Source: Anaerolineae bacterium
GTDB taxonomy: Bacteria; Chloroflexota; Anaerolineae; Aggregatilineales; Aggregatilineaceae
Assembly (NCBI GenBank): GCA_023382715.1
Contig: JAHDWP010000004.1
Coordinates: forward strand, 62,001-126,000
DNA: 64,000 nt
Reading direction: 5' to 3'
A program made the position numbers and the translations under genes. Positions 20,066 to 27,364 of this stretch are shown here, piece after piece. The notes beneath the pieces are model-generated. The model searched no databases. It saw only the letters and a program-made list of their open reading frames with translations, and was not told the DNA's origin. Every line of letters begins with the position of its first letter. Position 1 is the first letter of the stretch.

Positions 20066-21124
20066 TTATGCATGGACGACAAGCGGCACGTCGGCGCGCG
20101 GCCCGGCCTGTCCCACGTCCCACCAGGGTGCCCGGCGGGCCGCCATCTGTGCCGCGAATGCCTCACGCTGATCGGGCGGCAGAGCGATCAGCAGGCCGCC
20201 GCTGGTTTGCGCGTCGAAAAGCAGCATCAGCAGGTGCTCCGGCAGATCGCCCTCCGCGCGCACGCCGCGCTGGTATGCTTCGCGGTTGGCCGCCGAGCCG
20301 CCGGGGAAGATCCACGCGCTCGCGTACTGTTCCGCGCCGGGCAGCAGCGGCATCTGCGCCATGTCCAGGTGCAGGGTGACGCCGCTGGCCTCGGCCACTT
20401 CGGTGGCGTGGCCCAGCAGCCCGAAGCCGGTAATGTCGGTCGCGGCGCGTGCGCCGACCTCCACTGCGATCTCCGCCGCGTCGCGGTTGAGGCGCATCAT
20501 CCAGCCAGCCGCGTCCGCCAGATCGTCCGGCCTGGCCCGGTCGGACCTGGCGGCGGTGGTGATACAGCCGGTGCCCAGCGGCTTGGTCAGGATCAGCCGG
20601 TCGCCGGGGCGTGCGCCGCCTTTGGTCAGCAGCCGATCGGGAGAAGCCAGCCCGACTACCGCCAGGCCAACCTTCGGCTCCTCGTCCTGGATGGTGTGCC
20701 CGCCGGCGATGACCGCCCCCGCTTCGCGCACCTTCTCGGCCATGCCCACCATAATCTGCGTGATCATCGCCGGGGGCAGGTTGCGTGGCAGCGCCGCGAT
20801 GTTCAGCGCCAGCAGCGGGCGCCCGCCCATCGCGTAAACGTCGCTGAGGGCATTGGCCGCCGCAATCGCGCCATACTGGTAGGCGTCGTCCACGATCGGC
20901 GTGAAGAAGTCGGTCGTGACGATCAGCGCGCGCGCCTCATCGAGCCGGTATACGGCGGCATCGTCCGGCGCGCCCAGGCCCACCAGCAGGTCGGGGTGAT
21001 CCGCCGGGCGGAAGAGGTCTTGCATGGGGCGCAGCACGTGCGCCAGGGCCTCCGGGGCCAGCTTGGATGCTCAGCCGGCGCACGATGAGAGCGCCGTCAG
21101 GCGGGTGATGTCTTCGCGAGTCAT
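20066..21124 (-). CDS. selD: Selenophosphate synthase, itself a selenoprotein (in-frame UGA)
   Basis: Makes selenophosphate from selenide and ATP, the selenium donor for selenocysteine and selenouridine. The frame from the ATG at 21124 has a single in-frame TGA at codon 18 (21071-21073) in the context SSCAGUASKLAPEAL, where U stands for the TGA. This is the active-site C/U-x-x-K position (Cys17 and Lys20 in E. coli), with Lys at 21. The rest is normal: GAPDDAAVY, DVYAMGGRPLLALN, GGHTIQDEEPKVG and TDITGFGLLGHA. Total 352 residues, the usual length. Starting at the internal Met at 21037 would remove the active site. Divergent from the homoserine dehydrogenase gene. Confidence 0.92.
21043..21066 (-). 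promoter_or_regulatory. Candidate bacterial SECIS hairpin in selD
   Basis: Directly after the UGA, the RNA can fold as CCA-AGCU-GGCC-[CCGGA]-GGCC-C-UGG, with the apical loop about 19-23 bases from the UGA, the usual distance for a bacterial SECIS element. The stem is short; support is mostly positional. Confidence 0.35.
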
Positions 21125-21310: not shown

Positions 21311-22396
21311 GTGACAGAACCCCGGCGAATTCCCTTGATCATCGTGGGCGTGGGCAATGTCGGGCGCGCTTTTCTGGCGCAGCTCACCCAGACTCGTGAC
21401 GCGCTGGCGCAGCGCTATGGCGTGGAGCTGTCGCCGGTCGCCCTGGCGGACAGCCGGGCCACCCTGTGCGACGCGGAAGGGCTGTCTGCGCAGGCGGTGC
21501 GCGCTGCCGCCGATCTCAAGGTTGGCGGGCGCTCGCTGGCCGAAGCGCCGGGCGCACAGCCGGGGTTGGCGGCGCGCGAGCTGGTCGAATGGGCGGCGCG
21601 CGCCGGGCTGGAACGGGCCATCGTCGTGGATACGACGGCGACGGATGGCATGGAGCCGGCGTTGCAGCGGGCGCTGGCGCTCGGCTATGGCGTGGTGCTG
21701 GCCAACAAACGTCCGCTGGCTGGCCCCTGGGAGGGCGCGCAGGGCTTCTTCGAATCGCCGCGCGTGCGCTTCGAGGCGACGGTGGGCGCGGGGCTGCCCG
21801 TCATCAACACGCTGCGCTACCTGGTGGACACCGGTGACGAGATCGCGCGCATTGAGGGCGCGCTGAGCGGCACCCTCGGCTATCTGTGCAGCCGCCTGGA
21901 AGACGGTGAGCCGTTCTCGCTGGCGGTGGGCATGGCCCGATCGAAGGGCTACACCGAGCCAGACCCGCGCGATGACCTGAGCGGAATGGACGTGGCCCGC
22001 AAGGCGCTTATCCTCAGCCGGCTGGCCGGCTGGCCGATGGAGCTTGAGCAGATTCGCGTCGAGCCGCTCTATCCCGGCGAGATGGCCGCGCTGAGCGTGG
22101 ACGAGTTCATGGCTCAGCTTCCACGCCTGGACTCCGATTTCGCCGCGTACATGGGGGCGCTGGCCGGGGTGCCGCGCTACCTGGCCGAGATCGGCCCGCA
22201 GGGGGGCGTCGTGGCCTTGCGTATGGTCGGCGAGCGGCTGGCCGCCCAACTGCGCGGCACGCAGAACCAGGTGTCGTTCTCGACGCGCCGCTATGACGAG
22301 CATCCCCTGACGCTGCTGGGGCCGGGCGCTGGCATGGAGATCACCGCCGCCGCCGTGTTGCAGGACTGTATGCAGCTTGCGCGCGCGTGCACCTGA
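21311..22396 (+). CDS. hom: Homoserine dehydrogenase without ACT domain
   Basis: NAD(P)-dependent reduction of aspartate semialdehyde to homoserine, on the route to threonine, methionine and isoleucine. 361 residues: Rossmann motif IIVGVGNVGRAF at the N terminus, VVLANKRPL with the family NK pair near residue 134, the substrate-binding block FEATVGAGLPVINTL and SGTLGYL, and RSKGYTEPDPRDDLSGMDVARK with the catalytic Lys. It lacks the C-terminal ACT regulatory domain of many homologues, so threonine feedback through ACT is not expected. GTG start, preceded by AGGAG. Single gene; the arg leader region follows. Confidence 0.93.
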   Translation: MTEPRRIPLIIVGVGNVGRAFLAQLTQTRDALAQRYGVELSPVALADSRATLCDAEGLSAQAVRAAADLKVGGRSLAEAPGAQPGLAARELVEWAARAGLERAIVVDTTATDGMEPALQRALALGYGVVLANKRPLAGPWEGAQGFFESPRVRFEATVGAGLPVINTLRYLVDTGDEIARIEGALSGTLGYLCSRLEDGEPFSLAVGMARSKGYTEPDPRDDLSGMDVARKALILSRLAGWPMELEQIRVEPLYPGEMAALSVDEFMAQLPRLDSDFAAYMGALAGVPRYLAEIGPQGGVVALRMVGERLAAQLRGTQNQVSFSTRRYDEHPLTLLGPGAGMEITAAAVLQDCMQLARACT

Positions 22397-22444
22397 TTCC
22401 TGCGGGCCGCCCGCCACTTGTATGTTTCGACCAAATCGTCCGCC

Positions 22445-22473
22445 TTGTGTGAATGCCGCACCTGTGTTATTGT
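22445..22473 (+). promoter_or_regulatory. Candidate promoter of the arg leader
   Basis: TTGTGT (22445-22450), 17-bp spacer, TATTGT (22468-22473) with TG extension. The predicted start near 22480 falls just after the first possible leader ATG, so translation might instead begin at the in-frame GTG at 22505. Confidence 0.45.
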
Positions 22474-22474
22474 C

Positions 22475-22588
22475 ATGCGCATTCGCGCTTTCCGGCTTAA
22501 TTCAGTGAGTGATCGCATCGTGCTGCTCAGCTTCGCGCCCCGCCGCCCTCGTCGCCGTCCGGCTCCCGCCATTTCGGGTCCGGCTTAG
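22475..22588 (+). CDS. Arginine-rich leader peptide of the arg operon (putative)
   Basis: Short open frame (37 codons from ATG 22475, or 27 from GTG 22505) between hom and argC, too small for routine gene calling. It contains the run APRRPRRRP: five Arg codons in six at 22541-22558 (CGC CGC CCT CGT CGC CGT), plus more Arg upstream. Its last codons, before the TAG at 22586, contain the antiterminator strand. This arrangement matches amino-acid leader peptides (as for trp or his operons), with ribosome stalling at Arg codons sensing Arg-tRNA supply. No clear Shine-Dalgarno sequence is visible, so the start is uncertain. Confidence 0.6.
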   Translation: MRIRAFRLNSVSDRIVLLSFAPRRPRRRPAPAISGPA

Positions 22589-22650
22589 CGGGGTTTGGGG
22601 TAGCGTCAGCGTATAACGCCCACCAGAAACCAAACCGCTCTCGGACCCGA
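22574..22650 (+). promoter_or_regulatory. Antiterminator pairing of the arg attenuator
   Basis: TCGGGTCCG (22574-22582) is perfectly complementary to CGGACCCGA (22642-22650), which forms the loop and part of both arms of the terminator. The two structures exclude each other. A ribosome stalled at the Arg codons would leave 22574-22582 free; one at the leader stop would cover it. Confidence 0.65.
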
Positions 22651-22662
22651 GAGCGGTTTTTT
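22632..22662 (+). terminator. Attenuator terminator before argC
   Basis: Perfect 12-bp stem (AAACCGCTCTCG / CGAGAGCGGTTT) with a 4-base loop GACC, followed by six T. It is upstream of argC and downstream of the leader ORF. Confidence 0.9.
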
Positions 22663-22694
22663 GTGTTTGGATGGGCGCAGTCTGCGAGGGGACT

Positions 22695-23711
22695 ATGACT
22701 ATTCGTGTGGGAGTGTATGGGGCGACCGGCTACACCGGCCTGGAACTGGTGCGGCTGTTGACGGCGCACCCGGCGGTGACGGTGGCCTTTGCCACCTCGG
22801 AGACTTCCGCCGGGCAAAACCTGCGCCAGAGCTGGCCGCAAGCGCCCGACCTGCCGCTCATCTCCGCCGCCGCTGCGCCGCTTGACGACGTGGATGCTGT
22901 GCTGCTCTGCCTGCCGCACACGCGCTCCGCGCCCATCGCCGCCCAGGCGTTAGCGCGCGGCGTGCGTGTCGTAGACCTCTCCGCCGATCTGCGCCTGGAC
23001 GATCCGGCGGTCTATGCGCAATGGTACGGCATCGCCCACCCCGCGCCGGAGCTGCTGCCCATGCCCTACGGCCTGCCGGAGCTGGGTCGCGACCGGCTGC
23101 GCGGCGCGCGGGCCATTGCCAACCCCGGCTGCTACGCCACGTCGGTGCTGCTGGCCCTGGCACCGCTGGCCCGCGCTCGCGTGCTCGTGCCCGGCGCGCC
23201 GCTGATCGTGGACGCCAAGTCCGGCACATCCGGGGCGGGGCGGACGCCCAAGCAGCACATCCTCTTCGCCGAGGTGCATGGCAACTTCTCGCCCTACAGC
23301 ATTGGGCGGGCACACCGCCACCTGGCCGAGATCGAGCAGGTGCTGGCCGGCGAGGACGCGACGCTGGGGCCGGTGATTTTCTCGCCACACCTGCTGCCCA
23401 CCGATCGGGGCATTCTGTCCACCGTCTACGCGCCGGTGACGGACATGGCCGCCGCGCAGGAAGCCTTCGCCGCCTGTTACGCCGGAGAGCCGCTGATCGA
23501 TCTGCTGCCGCCGGGCGAGCTGGCGACGCTGGCGCACGTTGTGCGCACGCCGCGCGCCGCGCTCTCCCTGACTTCGGCGAGCGACGGCCTGCTGATCATC
23601 GTCTCGGTGATTGACAACCTGCTCAAGGGCGCGGCGTCGCAGGCCGTGCAGAACCTCAACCTGATGTTCGATCTGCCCGAAATCGCCGGATTGCTGCCGG
23701 TTAGTGCTTGA
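22695..23711 (+). CDS. argC: N-acetyl-gamma-glutamyl-phosphate reductase
   Basis: Reduces N-acetylglutamyl phosphate to the semialdehyde, third step of arginine synthesis. 338 residues: NADP-binding GVYGATGYTGLEL at the N terminus, catalytic Cys in IANPGCYATS (~residue 147), and HRHLAEIEQVL. The ATG at 22695 is preferred because GAGGGG lies upstream and GVYGATG then follows four residues later; an in-frame start at 22671 would add eight residues. First gene behind the leader attenuator. Confidence 0.95.
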   Translation: MTIRVGVYGATGYTGLELVRLLTAHPAVTVAFATSETSAGQNLRQSWPQAPDLPLISAAAAPLDDVDAVLLCLPHTRSAPIAAQALARGVRVVDLSADLRLDDPAVYAQWYGIAHPAPELLPMPYGLPELGRDRLRGARAIANPGCYATSVLLALAPLARARVLVPGAPLIVDAKSGTSGAGRTPKQHILFAEVHGNFSPYSIGRAHRHLAEIEQVLAGEDATLGPVIFSPHLLPTDRGILSTVYAPVTDMAAAQEAFAACYAGEPLIDLLPPGELATLAHVVRTPRAALSLTSASDGLLIIVSVIDNLLKGAASQAVQNLNLMFDLPEIAGLLPVSA

Positions 23712-23724
23712 AGGAGCGCCGCAC

Positions 23725-24495
23725 ATGGACGCGAAAATATCTCACGCTGAGGCACTCGCGCCGCTGGTCATCAAGGTGGGCGGCAACGATCTCGACCGGC
23801 CCGGCTTCCTGGACGCGCTGGCCGCCACAGTTGCGGGACTGGCCGCAGAAAGGCGATGCGTCCTGGTGCACGGCGGCGGGCGGGCCATCAACGAAGTGGG
23901 GCAGGCGTTCGGCCTGCAACCCGTCTACGTGGACGGGCAGCGCGTGACCGACCAGGCCGCGCTCGACGTGGCCGAGATGGTGCTTTCGGGGCAGGTCAAC
24001 AAGCAGATCGTGCGCGCGCTGCTGGCCGCCGGCGTGGACGCGCTGGGTCTCAGCGGCGTGGATCGCGGCCTGCTGCGCGTCGAACCCTGGGCGGCGAGCC
24101 TGGGCCGGGTGGGGCGCATCGTCGCCGTGCGCGCGGACGTGCTGCGCAGCCTATGCGCAGCGGGGGCCGTGCCGGTCGTCTCGCCAATCTCGCTCGGCCC
24201 GGACGGAGCCTACAACGTCAACGCCGATCACGCGGCGGGGGCGATTGCGGCGGCGCTGGGCGCGGCGCGGGCGACCTTCGTCACCAATGTGCCCGGCGTG
24301 CGCGCTGAGAACGGCGTGGTGCCGCGCCTGTCCGTCGCCGAGACGCTCGACCTGATCGCGCGCGGCGTGATCAACGGCGGGATGATCCCCAAGGTGCAGG
24401 CGGCGCTGGCGGCGGTGGGGGCGGGCGTGCGCCAGGCCGTGATCACCGACCTGACGGGGCTAGCGACGGGCACTGGCACCGTATTCGTGGCTTGA
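23725..24495 (+). CDS. argB: Acetylglutamate kinase
   Basis: Phosphorylates N-acetylglutamate, second step of arginine synthesis. 256 residues of the amino-acid kinase fold: VIKVGGNDL near the N terminus, VLVHGGGRAINEVG for the substrate and nucleotide site, NADHAAGAIAAALGA, and GVINGGMIPKVQAAL near the C terminus. ATG at 23725 has GAAGGAG before it; a GTG at 23704 in the same frame is less likely. Thirteen bases after argC. Confidence 0.94.
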   Translation: MDAKISHAEALAPLVIKVGGNDLDRPGFLDALAATVAGLAAERRCVLVHGGGRAINEVGQAFGLQPVYVDGQRVTDQAALDVAEMVLSGQVNKQIVRALLAAGVDALGLSGVDRGLLRVEPWAASLGRVGRIVAVRADVLRSLCAAGAVPVVSPISLGPDGAYNVNADHAAGAIAAALGAARATFVTNVPGVRAENGVVPRLSVAETLDLIARGVINGGMIPKVQAALAAVGAGVRQAVITDLTGLATGTGTVFVA

Positions 24496-24523: not shown

Positions 24524-25711
24524 ATGGCTGGCTCCACTGTGGAAAAGACCGCGCAGTACGTGCTCAACACCTACGCGCGCGCACCGTTCGTGCTGGAGCG
24601 CGGGCAGGGCGCGACGCTGACCGACGCGGACGGCAAGACCTATCTCGATTTCGCGGCGGGCATCAGCGTCAACGCGCTCGGCCATGCGGACGCCGAGCTG
24701 ATCGCCGCCGTGAGTGAGCAGATGGCCCTGCTCGGCCACGTCTGCAACCTCTACCACTCCGCCCCCCACGCCGACCTGGCCGAGATGCTCTGCGAAAGCT
24801 CCTTCGCCGATAAGGTGTATTTCTGCAATTCGGGCACGGAAGCGGTCGAGGCAGCGATCAAGTTCGCGCGCAAGCATGCCCGCGAGACGTTCGGCCCCGG
24901 CAAGACCGATCTGGTCGCCTTCGGCGGCAGCTTTCACGGGCGGACGGCGGGCGCGCTGGCCCTCACCGCGCGCGAGAAGTACCAGGCTCCCTTCCGCCCG
25001 TTGATGCCCGGCGTGACCTTCGCCCCCTTCAACGACAGCGCCGCCGCCGAGAAGCTGATCGGCCCAGGGACGTGCGCCGTCTTCGTCGAGCCGGTGCAGG
25101 GCGAGGGGGGCATTCACGCCGCCACGCCGGAGTTCCTGGCGACGCTGCGCCAGGCGTGCGACCGGCACGGCGCGCTGCTGGTCTTCGACGAGATTCAGTG
25201 TGGGGTGGGTCGCACCGGCAGGCTGTGGGCGTATGAGCACTTTGAGGTGCAGCCGGACATGATGACCCTGGCCAAGGCCCTGGGCGGCGGGCTGCCTATC
25301 GGCGCGACGCTGCTCACCGATCACGTGGCCGGGTCGCTCGCCCCCGGCGATCATGGCAGCACCTTCGCCGGCGGGCCGGTCGTCTGCCGGGCGGCGCAGG
25401 TGGTGCTGCGCCGCGTCAATGACCCGGCGTTCCTGGCCCGCGTGCTGGCGCTCGGCGCGCGGCTGGTGGAACGGCTGCGCGATTTGCGCTCGCCGCACGT
25501 CCGCGAAGTGCGCGGCCTGGGCCTGATGATCGGCGTGGAGCTGGATATTGAGGTCGCGCCGCTGATCAAAGCTGGCTACGCGCACGGCGTGATCATGATC
25601 AACGCCGGGCCGAAGGTGCTGCGCCTGCTGCCGCCGCTCATCATCGAGGAAGCGCATATTGACCAGTTCGCCGAAGTGCTCGGCACCATTCTGCACGAGG
25701 TCGCGCGCTGA
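24524..25711 (+). CDS. argD: Acetylornithine aminotransferase
   Basis: PLP enzyme converting N-acetylglutamate semialdehyde to N-acetylornithine, using glutamate. 395 residues, class III aminotransferase: LDFAAGISVNALGH near the N terminus, FCNSGTEAVEAAIKFAR, SFHGRTAGAL, and the PLP lysine in TLAKALGGGLPIGA. Stop overlaps the next start by one base (TGATG). Confidence 0.94.
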   Translation: MAGSTVEKTAQYVLNTYARAPFVLERGQGATLTDADGKTYLDFAAGISVNALGHADAELIAAVSEQMALLGHVCNLYHSAPHADLAEMLCESSFADKVYFCNSGTEAVEAAIKFARKHARETFGPGKTDLVAFGGSFHGRTAGALALTAREKYQAPFRPLMPGVTFAPFNDSAAAEKLIGPGTCAVFVEPVQGEGGIHAATPEFLATLRQACDRHGALLVFDEIQCGVGRTGRLWAYEHFEVQPDMMTLAKALGGGLPIGATLLTDHVAGSLAPGDHGSTFAGGPVVCRAAQVVLRRVNDPAFLARVLALGARLVERLRDLRSPHVREVRGLGLMIGVELDIEVAPLIKAGYAHGVIMINAGPKVLRLLPPLIIEEAHIDQFAEVLGTILHEVAR

Positions 25712-26166
25712 TGATCATCCGCCAACCCCACGCCGACGAGGTTGAGGCGATCCTGGCCCTGTTCGCGCGGGATGTCGCCGCCGGGCTGATGCTGCCGCGC
25801 CCCGCCGACGAGATGCGCCAGCAGCTTGATCGCTGGCTGGTCGCCGAGCAGGGGGGGCAGATGGTCGGCTGCGTGTCGCTGGTCTACTACAACGGCACGC
25901 TGGCCGAGGTGCGCTCGCTGGCCGTGCACCCCGATCATCGCGGCAATGGCGTCGCCAGCCAGTTGGTCACGGCAGCGGTGGCGATGGCGCGGGCGCGCGG
26001 GCTGAGGCGCGTGCTGACGCTGACCCGCGCCGCCCACCTGTTCGAACGGCTCGGCTTCGAGCGCGACGCCGTCAGCAATTTCCCGATCAAGGTCTGGCAG
26101 GATTGCGCGCCGTGCCCGTTCAAGGAACACTGCGACGAGATCGCGCTGGTCTATGAGTTGGAGTGA
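25711..26166 (+). CDS. argA: Short GNAT-type N-acetylglutamate synthase
   Basis: Acetylates glutamate with acetyl-CoA, first step of arginine synthesis. 151 residues of a single GNAT domain; acetyl-CoA loop in VHPDHRGNGVASQLV. The C terminus FPIKVWQDCAPCPFKEHCDEIAL resembles the short ArgA type, with a cysteine cluster rather than the amino-acid-kinase domain of classical ArgA. Coupled to argD by a one-base overlap. Since argJ can also make acetylglutamate from acetylornithine, this gene would refill the cycle. Confidence 0.85.
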   Translation: MIIRQPHADEVEAILALFARDVAAGLMLPRPADEMRQQLDRWLVAEQGGQMVGCVSLVYYNGTLAEVRSLAVHPDHRGNGVASQLVTAAVAMARARGLRRVLTLTRAAHLFERLGFERDAVSNFPIKVWQDCAPCPFKEHCDEIALVYELE

Positions 26167-26176
26167 GGGGGAGACG

Positions 26177-27364
26177 ATGACAGAACCTATGCCGCAAGGT
26201 TTTCGCCTGGCCGGGCTGCACTGCGGCCTGAAGCGCAGCGAGCGCAAGGACATCGCCCTGCTGGTTAGCGACGCGCCGTGCGTCGCGGCGGGCGTCTTCA
26301 CCGCCAACCAGGTCAAGGCTGCGCCCGTGCTGCGCGATCAGGCGCTCCTGACAGGGGAGGGCGCACGGGTGCGCGCTGTGCTGGCCAACACCGGCAGCGC
26401 CAACGCCTGCACCGGTGAGCCGGGCCTGCGCGACGCGCACACCTCGGCGGAGCGCATGGCGGCGCTGCTCGGCTGCGCGCCGGAGGAAGTGCTCACCCTT
26501 TCGACGGGCGTGATTGGGCTGCCGCTCGATATGACGGCGATGGAGCGCGGGATTGCCGCGCTGGTCCCGGCGCTGCGCCCGGACGGGTGGGCAGACGCCG
26601 CCGCGGCGATCATGACCACCGACACGCGGCCCAAGCTGGCCTCGGCGCGCCTGGCGTCCGGCGCGGTGATCGCGGGCATCGCCAAAGGCTCGGGCATGAT
26701 CGCCCCGCACATGGCGACTATGCTCGCCCTGATCGCCACTGACGCCAGCATCCCCGCCGCCGATCTGGACGGCTATCTGCGCGCTGCGGTAGAGGAGAGC
26801 TTCAACCGCATCGTGGTGGACGGCGACATGAGCACCAACGACACGGTCCTGCTGCTGGCCAATGGCGCGGCGGGCGTGACGGTGGGCGATCCGGCTGAGT
26901 TCCAGGCGGCGCTGACCGGTGTGTGCGTCGCGCTGGCCCAGGCCATCGTCCGTGACGGGGAGGGCGCGACCAAGTTCGTCACCGTCGAGGTCAGCGGTGC
27001 GGCGGACGAGGCCAGCGCTCACCAGATCGCCCGGCAGATCGCTGTCTCACCGCTGGTCAAGACGGCCTTCTACGGTGCGGACGCCAACTGGGGGCGCATC
27101 CTGGCGGCAGCGGGCTATGCGGGCGTCGCGCTCGACCCGGCGCGGCTGAGCCTGTGGCTGCTCGACGCGGATGGGCAACCGGTGCTGCAGCTTGTCGAGG
27201 GCGGGCAGCCCACTGCCTACGACGAGCGCGCTGCCATCGCCCTGATGCAGACGGCGGAATGGGGCGTGCGCCTCGACCTGGGGCAGGGCGCAGCTCGTGC
27301 GCACGTCTGGACGTGCGATCTCAGCCACGACTACGTGTCGATCAACGGCCACTATCGAACGTGA
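26177..27364 (+). CDS. argJ: Bifunctional ornithine acetyltransferase / N-acetylglutamate synthase
   Basis: Moves the acetyl group from N-acetylornithine to glutamate, closing the acetyl cycle. 395 residues from the ATG at 26177 (an in-frame ATG at 26153 overlaps the argA end). Self-cleavage motif at HMATML, giving nucleophile T181; the preceding KGSGMIAPHMA and following TDASIPAADL are conserved. C-terminal NGHYRT ending is typical. Last gene of the arg cluster; argF, argG and argH are not in the window. Confidence 0.94.
   Translation: MTEPMPQGFRLAGLHCGLKRSERKDIALLVSDAPCVAAGVFTANQVKAAPVLRDQALLTGEGARVRAVLANTGSANACTGEPGLRDAHTSAERMAALLGCAPEEVLTLSTGVIGLPLDMTAMERGIAALVPALRPDGWADAAAAIMTTDTRPKLASARLASGAVIAGIAKGSGMIAPHMATMLALIATDASIPAADLDGYLRAAVEESFNRIVVDGDMSTNDTVLLLANGAAGVTVGDPAEFQAALTGVCVALAQAIVRDGEGATKFVTVEVSGAADEASAHQIARQIAVSPLVKTAFYGADANWGRILAAAGYAGVALDPARLSLWLLDADGQPVLQLVEGGQPTAYDERAAIALMQTAEWGVRLDLGQGAARAHVWTCDLSHDYVSINGHYRT

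Follow-up and report, generated by a model that had tools for sequence, protein, structure and literature searches.

The arginine operon argCBDJ of this Anaerolineae genome (3.88 Mb) is preceded by what is very likely a ribosome-mediated transcription attenuator, which would report charged tRNA-Arg to the operon. Throughout, "the window" refers to the whole stretch of DNA that was analysed (64,000 nucleotides), and coordinates are positions in it. Sequence and comparison show the reading frame, the conservation of its Arg codons, three alternative helices in the RNA with their covariation, and the arginine operon. That the operon responds to arginine is an inference, and there are no transcript, translation or arginine-response data behind it. 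The features of a trp/his-type attenuator which the locus meets are a leader with cognate codons, an intrinsic terminator, an antiterminator (in silico), and genes for the end product downstream.

The argC leader and its alternative helices

The attenuator lies between a homoserine-dehydrogenase-like gene (hom; stop at 22396; best NCBIfam match 277.9 bits, under its cut-off) and argC. This gap contains, in order, a conserved element, a probable promoter, the leader ORF, a covarying hairpin, the antiterminator and the terminator, all described here on the plus strand. On the 3' side of the attenuator, the gene order is argC-argB-argD-(GNAT)-argJ, also on the plus strand. The first gene of the operon is argC (N-acetyl-gamma-glutamyl-phosphate reductase; 22695–23711; TIGR01850, 345.3 bits against a cut-off of 233.6), followed by argB (acetylglutamate kinase; 23704–24495; TIGR00761, 206.9 bits against 151.3), argD (acetylornithine transaminase; 24524–25711; TIGR00707, 479.6 bits against 410.05), a GNAT N-acetyltransferase gene that is possibly argA-like (25711–26166; PRK07757, 139.4 bits, under the cut-off of 154), and argJ (ornithine acetyltransferase; 26153–27364; TIGR00120, 436 bits against 298). 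With the GNAT gene excepted, these genes score above their NCBIfam cut-offs, so the product of the operon is arginine. Elsewhere in the window, selD lies on the minus strand (20066–21124; TIGR00476, 375.9 bits against a cut-off of 125). Because it has an in-frame TGA within SSCAGUASK, we infer that its product is likely a selenocysteine-containing SelD.

The leader peptide ORF (22520–22588) has 22 codons: it starts with GTG, encodes MLLSFAPRRPRRRPAPAISGPA and stops at TAG (22586–22588). Its control codons are CGC CGC CCT CGT CGC CGT (22541–22558; Arg Arg Pro Arg Arg Arg), i.e., five Arg in six codons, in the same frame as the TAG. The start codon was picked by comparison and is not shown: the GTG at 22520 aligns with an ATG in two relatives (L004 and L005). 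An in-frame ATG at 22475 was considered as the leader start and rejected, both for this alignment and because it sits only a few bases from the probable −10 hexamer (22468–22473).

We assessed conservation of the leader in an alignment, A1, of 15 sequences from families f1 and f3, with the window counted in. Arg is encoded at codon positions 22541 and 22550 in 15/15 sequences, at 22556 in 14/15, at 22553 in 13/15 and at 22544 in 8/15. The Arg codons at these positions are CGC or CGT without exception, i.e., Arg is kept with synonymous third-base changes. Pro is present at 22547 in 13/15 and at 22559 in 12/15. The motif RRxRRRP is thus retained as amino acids within f1/f3, and the amino acids vary from codon 22562 onward. 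Across other families, leader peptides show no evident relation beyond the Arg run (judged by reading) and the spacing of Arg is variable. An NCBIfam scan of the leader peptide matched 0 families. In two leaders of family f30 (L163 and L169), the Arg codons are AGG, not CGY.

The probable leader promoter (22445–22473) comprises TTGTGT (22445–22450), a 17-nt spacer and an extended −10, TGT-TATTGT, with the −10 hexamer at 22468–22473. It is poor by consensus, scoring 7.75 (below 9) on a scale that includes small bonuses for spacing and TG, and it was missed by the consensus scan of the window. The evidence for it is alignment: TTGTGT-17-TATTGT aligns with the promoter of five relatives. Among the 106 loci in which the arrangement was detected (see below), promoter-like hexamer pairs scoring at least 9 occur upstream of the Arg run in 73, compared with 8% in shuffles, and the −10 of the best promoter-like site is a median of 62 nt upstream of the Arg run.

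Upstream of this promoter is a conserved element, TTGTATGTTTCGACCAAA (22418–22435), which has a single copy in its own genome and a similar counterpart in f1 relatives. It is an imperfect inverted repeat, reads TTTGT..ACCAAA in L004, L006, L007, L009 and L011, and has its 3' end 9 nt before the leader's −35. It may be the binding site of an unknown regulator.

The intrinsic terminator (22632–22662) is a 12-bp stem (22632–22659) followed by a T run to 22662. A terminator scan of both strands of 22100–22900 found three terminator-like sites (shuffle mean 0.7), of which one is this stem as it reads on the minus strand. In A1, 92.1% of the terminator's cells are paired and five pairs have changed on both sides, with a covariation score as high in 0/500 shuffles. 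Further pair types occur in the A1 terminator in an unremarkable number (261/500 shuffles).

Pairing and folding tests define an antiterminator that competes for the same sequence. Its 5' strand (22572–22598) overlaps the end of the leader ORF and the stop codon, and its 3' strand (22630–22652) is the 5' arm and loop of the terminator. Within these strands, TCGGGTCCG (22574–22582) is the exact reverse complement of CGGACCCGA (22642–22650). Folding extends this to a core of 12 bp, including G-U pairs (22572–22583 with 22641–22652), and adds two further helices (22587–22591 with 22635–22639, and 22594–22598 with 22630–22634). The leader/terminator duplex of the window has a z of −4.5, with 0/200 shuffled leaders as good, and none of the other 105 leaders tested pairs better with the window's terminator. 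RNA from 22572 on is predicted to fold as the antiterminator (−40.5 kcal/mol at full length) and RNA from 22601 on as the terminator (−25.0 kcal/mol). The predicted fold of the free leader (22480–22670) includes the terminator.

In A1, the antiterminator core is nearly invariant, with 90.5% of it paired versus 31–49% when slid. Because of this near-invariance, antiterminator covariation within f1/f3 (A1) is not significant (18/500 shuffles reach the score). Formal pair counting of the antiterminator was restricted to A1, and across families we used own-versus-foreign pairing instead.

The remaining helix, hairpin 1:2 (22559–22583; strands 22559–22568 and 22575–22583), is a proposed anti-antiterminator. 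In A1, 84.2% of its cells are paired, four pairs have changed on both sides, and 0/500 shuffles reach the covariation score. It is not the window's minimum-energy fold. When the terminator's 3' arm has not yet been made, folding predicts the antiterminator even with strand 1 free or with no ribosome on the leader, so folding gives hairpin 1:2 no backing as a barrier. A role as a protector that competes with the antiterminator therefore rests solely on the f1/f3 covariation; it is an inference, and we regard it only as possible.

An initial annotation, made without any comparison, had claimed an Arg-codon run at 22541–22558 in a short ORF, a 12-bp terminator stem at 22632–22659 with a T run, and a 9-nt complement between 22574–22582 and 22642–22650. 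The first of these held base for base and the second also held. The third held exactly, the real pairing being longer (12 bp plus two helices). No start codon had been named, and the GTG at 22520 is now proposed by comparison.

Distribution and family-specific pairing

Our detector looks for an Arg-dense upstream ORF (3 of 5 codons), a terminator 20–150 nt later, and a leader/terminator duplex of −12 kcal/mol or below, in the 400 nt 5' of the best argC match. It was run on three sets. The first contained 83 regions: 80 from same-order genomes (of 90 with a match) and three loci of unknown order (L038, L039 and L044). The 80 same-order regions were 30 loci and 50 fetched regions, including two (L119 and L120) which precede a distant ArgC paralogue only; L033–L037, five copies of the same contigs, were excluded. 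The other sets were drawn from the rest of the class (60 taken from 91 genomes) and the rest of the phylum (40 of 127).

The arrangement was detected in 69/83 regions of the first set (66/80 of the same order and 3/3 of unknown order), with positives in each of the seven families that the set contains from the order. In the rest of the class it was detected in 32/60 regions, from 14/22 families, and in the rest of the phylum in 5/40. On reverse strands, the corresponding counts were 1/83, 0/60 and 0/40, and dinucleotide shuffles gave means of about 0.2 (of 83), 0.2 (of 60) and 0 (of 40). With Arg swapped for each other residue in turn, the maximum was 14/83 (Ser) in the first set and 6/60 (Leu) in the class set. 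On the basis of the reverse strands, shuffles and residue swaps, a chance origin of the arrangement is rejected. A stricter version of the detector, asking for longer stems and 5 Arg in 7 codons, was positive in 38/83, 5/60 and 1/40 regions, and in 0 reverse strands and shuffles. Note that the looser detector was adopted only after the stricter one's result was known; both are given here. Its rule is loose, so some class-level positives may be wrong in detail.

The detector was negative in 14/83 first-set regions. By eye, L016, L074, L076, L083, L093, L100 and L118 have an Arg-rich leader and an imperfect terminator stem, and the element is apparently missing in L032, L097 and L106; L119 and L120, upstream of the distant ArgC paralogue, are also among the negatives. 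It was negative in 28/60 class regions and 35/40 phylum regions, the latter including five regions of family f71. Positives outside the class are L218, L219, L220 and L222 (families f81 and f104) plus L252, which seems doubtful. The remaining loci, mostly of other phyla (one Chloroflexus, three of an unnamed phylum), gave 0/26 positives, four of 30 having been dropped for having little upstream sequence. Regions before ArgC paralogues gave 0/4. In the order, many genomes have two ArgC homologues, the second (e.g., G003:C55:102398-103408) showing ~35–40% identity and possibly being the LysY of the LysW pathway.

A covariance model, R1, had matches in 41/396 class genomes at E 0.01. This understates the distribution, as R1 misses most of family f2. 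Many partial matches cover scarcely more than the terminator and were not used. Outside the order there were 14 full-length matches, and the 11 inspected comprised nine before argC, one before argD (L128; TIGR00707 above cut-off) and one before lysX (L129). A further match, in G209:C352, is just 5' of argC by coordinates.

The antiterminator sequence differs among families, yet its complementarity is maintained. For example, the two strands of the core read GGGTCCGG/CCGGACCC in f1, CCGGTCTGG/CCAGACCGG in f4, TGAGGTTCG/CGAACCTCA in f8, TGAGGTCAG/CTGACCTCA in f2, GTCTGGA/TTCAGAC in f7, TGTGTCTGG/CCAGACACA in f40 and GAGGTTCGG/CCGAACCTC in f81. Across the 106 loci, a terminator's own leader pairs with it better than other-family leaders do, by a mean of 6.5 kcal/mol, and 22/25 families lie in that direction; f38, f46 and f54 show no own-leader advantage. 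Compared with shuffled leaders, the duplex is better at p 0.05 in 78/106 loci and at p 0.01 in 50/106. The specificity is not absolute: the own leader is within the best 5% for only 42/106 terminators, and a mean of 14% of foreign leaders pair better. Related genomes were counted as separate rows in this comparison, so the rows are not independent.

Arrangements with Lys in place of Arg codons were also found. The L129 match of R1 is a KRKK leader before a LysW-like ORF (L129:1878-2054, by reading) and lysX (TIGR02144 above cut-off). At this locus (L129:1501-1661), a leader ORF rich in Lys codons is followed by a terminator with a complementary leader segment. We then searched up to 1200 nt before lysX for a Lys-dense upstream ORF (4 of 6 codons) with a terminator and pairing. 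Of 72 genomes with a match, the best 30 were examined, two of which offered <700 nt of upstream sequence. The Lys-codon arrangement was present in 7/30 loci (L258, L259, L260, L261, L266, L272 and L285), from families f40, f39 and f22, and in 0/30 reverse strands. L260, L261 and L285 have tandem pairs of such leaders.

Proposed mechanism and rival explanations

In the proposed mechanism, RNA polymerase would start just upstream of the leader, and a ribosome would translate its 22 codons. When arginine is ample, the ribosome would reach the TAG at 22586 and cover the antiterminator strand (22572–22598), allowing the terminator (22632–22659) to form and leaving argC untranscribed. When arginine is short, the ribosome would stall on the Arg codons at 22550–22558 and cover strand 1 (22559–22568), and the freed strand 2 would pair with the 5' arm of the terminator, blocking termination and letting transcription proceed into argC. 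It is inferred that the leader is translated, and the same holds for where the ribosome sits, what hairpin 1:2 does and how cells respond to arginine.

The geometry of the loci bears on both ribosome positions. The core helix starts a median of 13 nt (quartiles 10–16) past the last Arg codon, and from this and usual ribosome footprints we infer that a stalled ribosome would cover strand 1 and free strand 2. In 11/12 f1 loci, the distance from the core helix to the end of the stop codon is 5–7 nt (20 nt in L008), and a ribosome terminating there would mask the helix. This distance is mostly about 20–27 nt in f2, f7 and f8, which makes masking less certain in those families. That folding of the window does not favour hairpin 1:2 also lowers our overall confidence slightly.

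The initial annotation had read the locus as an attenuator of the trp/his kind. Comparison supports that reading, with the response to arginine inferred. Of the three findings it had named as counting against it, one, terminator read-through unaffected by arginine, is a matter for experiment; the two open to comparison are a leader ORF and Arg run not conserved in relatives, and a transcription start downstream of 22590. On the first, the reading passed, as Arg is conserved in A1 and the arrangement is present in 66/80 same-order regions. On the second, no start has been mapped, and 73/106 loci have promoter-like sequence 5' of the Arg run. The annotation had not seen the extended antiterminator, the covarying hairpin 1:2, the occurrence across the class and in a handful of genomes outside it, the absence of a detectable ArgR, or the Lys-codon counterparts.

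The first rival explanation is nascent-chain arrest, in which free arginine would be sensed by the leader peptide inside the exit tunnel, much as TnaC and the fungal arginine attenuator peptide respond to their ligands, and the signal would be arrest of the peptide and not codon starvation. In its favour, RRxRRRP is kept in f1/f3, including both Pro positions (22547 in 13/15, 22559 in 12/15), and basic nascent chains can slow ribosomes. Against it, peptides differ among families beyond the Arg run, where no shared arrest peptide was found by reading, and Arg spacing varies; what persists is complementarity to the terminator. A stall at high arginine would, in this geometry, give read-through at high arginine, which is the wrong sign for a biosynthetic operon. 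The Lys-codon versions before lysX also fit codon sensing. We therefore consider arrest very unlikely.

A second possibility is that the terminator is simply hom's own, that argC has a promoter unconnected with it, and that the Arg-rich ORF arose by chance in DNA of high GC content. The terminator does sit between hom and argC, and Arg-dense ORFs are common in such DNA (19/83 reverse strands by the stricter rule). However, reverse-strand ORFs accompanied by a terminator number 0/83 by the stricter rule and 1/83 by the looser one, and the element is kept where the upstream sequence is not hom (e.g., L006 and L008, by reading). The promoter-like sites before the Arg run and the family-specific pairing also count against this explanation, which we judge highly improbable.

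A third is control of the speF/orf34 type, acting through translation or RNA decay (dependent on Rho or an RNase) and not through intrinsic termination. An Arg-codon leader with alternative structures is indeed known from Salmonella speF (PMC6386406). Here, however, a terminator with a T run is present in all 106 detected loci (the detector requires it) and is a partner in the conserved pairing, and the described helices end before the argC start codon, leaving this rival with very little likelihood. A metabolite riboswitch or T-box controlling argC would account for the conservation of a structured 5' region ahead of an amino-acid operon, but it is all but ruled out, as the conserved part is a reading frame and an Rfam search of the argC leader up to E 5 found no T-box, riboswitch or leader family, the sole match in the region being a microRNA family at 19.6 bits against a cut-off of 63.

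The attenuation reading can be taken further. In a bolder version, this class and some genomes of the phylum run arginine synthesis without ArgR through an old, widely kept attenuator family, which was retuned to Lys by codon exchange before lysX. We lean towards this version, though by no great margin. If it is true, the control codon is an exchangeable module within an attenuator family of its own.

Comparison with known systems

Textbooks present bacterial arginine synthesis as the standard example of control by a repressor protein. ArgR/AhrC is a DNA-binding repressor with the same arg target genes and the same logic, i.e., off when arginine is plentiful. It differs in being a protein that binds DNA, and the ArgR C-terminal domain (PF02863) was found in 0/101 own-order genomes, with controls positive in 8/14. 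PF01316 was above cut-off in 6/101 own-order genomes, all from f8 and all partial matches, and at E 0.001 in 11/101, of which five were below cut-off, including one in f1 (G008); there was none in the window's own genome. This is a lineage without detectable ArgR in which attenuation apparently takes that role, and the attenuator is conserved deeply enough for compensatory changes between families to be seen.

RNA-level control of arginine genes has been described elsewhere. T-boxes for arginine genes are reported outside Actinobacteria, and in Actinobacteria no conserved RNA structures were found upstream of arginine or lysine operons (PMC1262725). A T-box is likewise RNA-level control by tRNA charging; the difference is that it binds the tRNA directly, and the window has no T-box match. 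The fungal arginine attenuator peptide resembles the argC leader in being an upstream peptide for arginine-dependent regulation of arginine synthesis. It differs in being eukaryotic and translational, with arrest at high arginine and no transcription terminator.

We found no leader-peptide attenuator of a bacterial arginine-biosynthesis operon in the open-access literature searched; with coverage incomplete, this speaks only weakly for novelty. RegPrecise 3.0 (PMC3840689) includes a Chloroflexi regulon collection. According to PMC2965389, Proteobacteria and Actinobacteria are the groups with known ribosome-mediated attenuators, and the word arginine has 0 occurrences in that paper. The nearest known case in the literature searched is Salmonella speF orf34 (Ben-Zvi et al. 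2019, PMC6386406), where arginine is likewise sensed through consecutive Arg codons in a leader ORF, at which ribosomes pause, and one RNA structure or another is selected as a result. It differs in governing polyamine synthesis, via Rho, RNase G and release of the ribosome-binding site, with no arginine operon and no intrinsic termination.

Should the mechanism hold, the loci supply natural variants with which the effects of codon identity, spacing and the position of the stop codon could be tested, and the arrangement gives a rule for locating short unannotated leader genes in Chloroflexota genomes. The closest parallel in design is with the trp/his-type attenuators. Leader-peptide attenuators control the trp, his, leu, thr, phe and ilv operons, and the argC system shares with the trp/his type a short ORF with a cognate codon run, alternative hairpins (2:3 and 3:4, with 1:2 as a proposed third), and an intrinsic terminator before a biosynthetic operon. 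Unlike them, it has arginine as its codon, belongs to the phylum Chloroflexota, matches no Rfam leader family, and has an antiterminator strand that overlaps the leader stop codon. Classical attenuation would thereby be extended to arginine, and probably to lysine too, and to another phylum.
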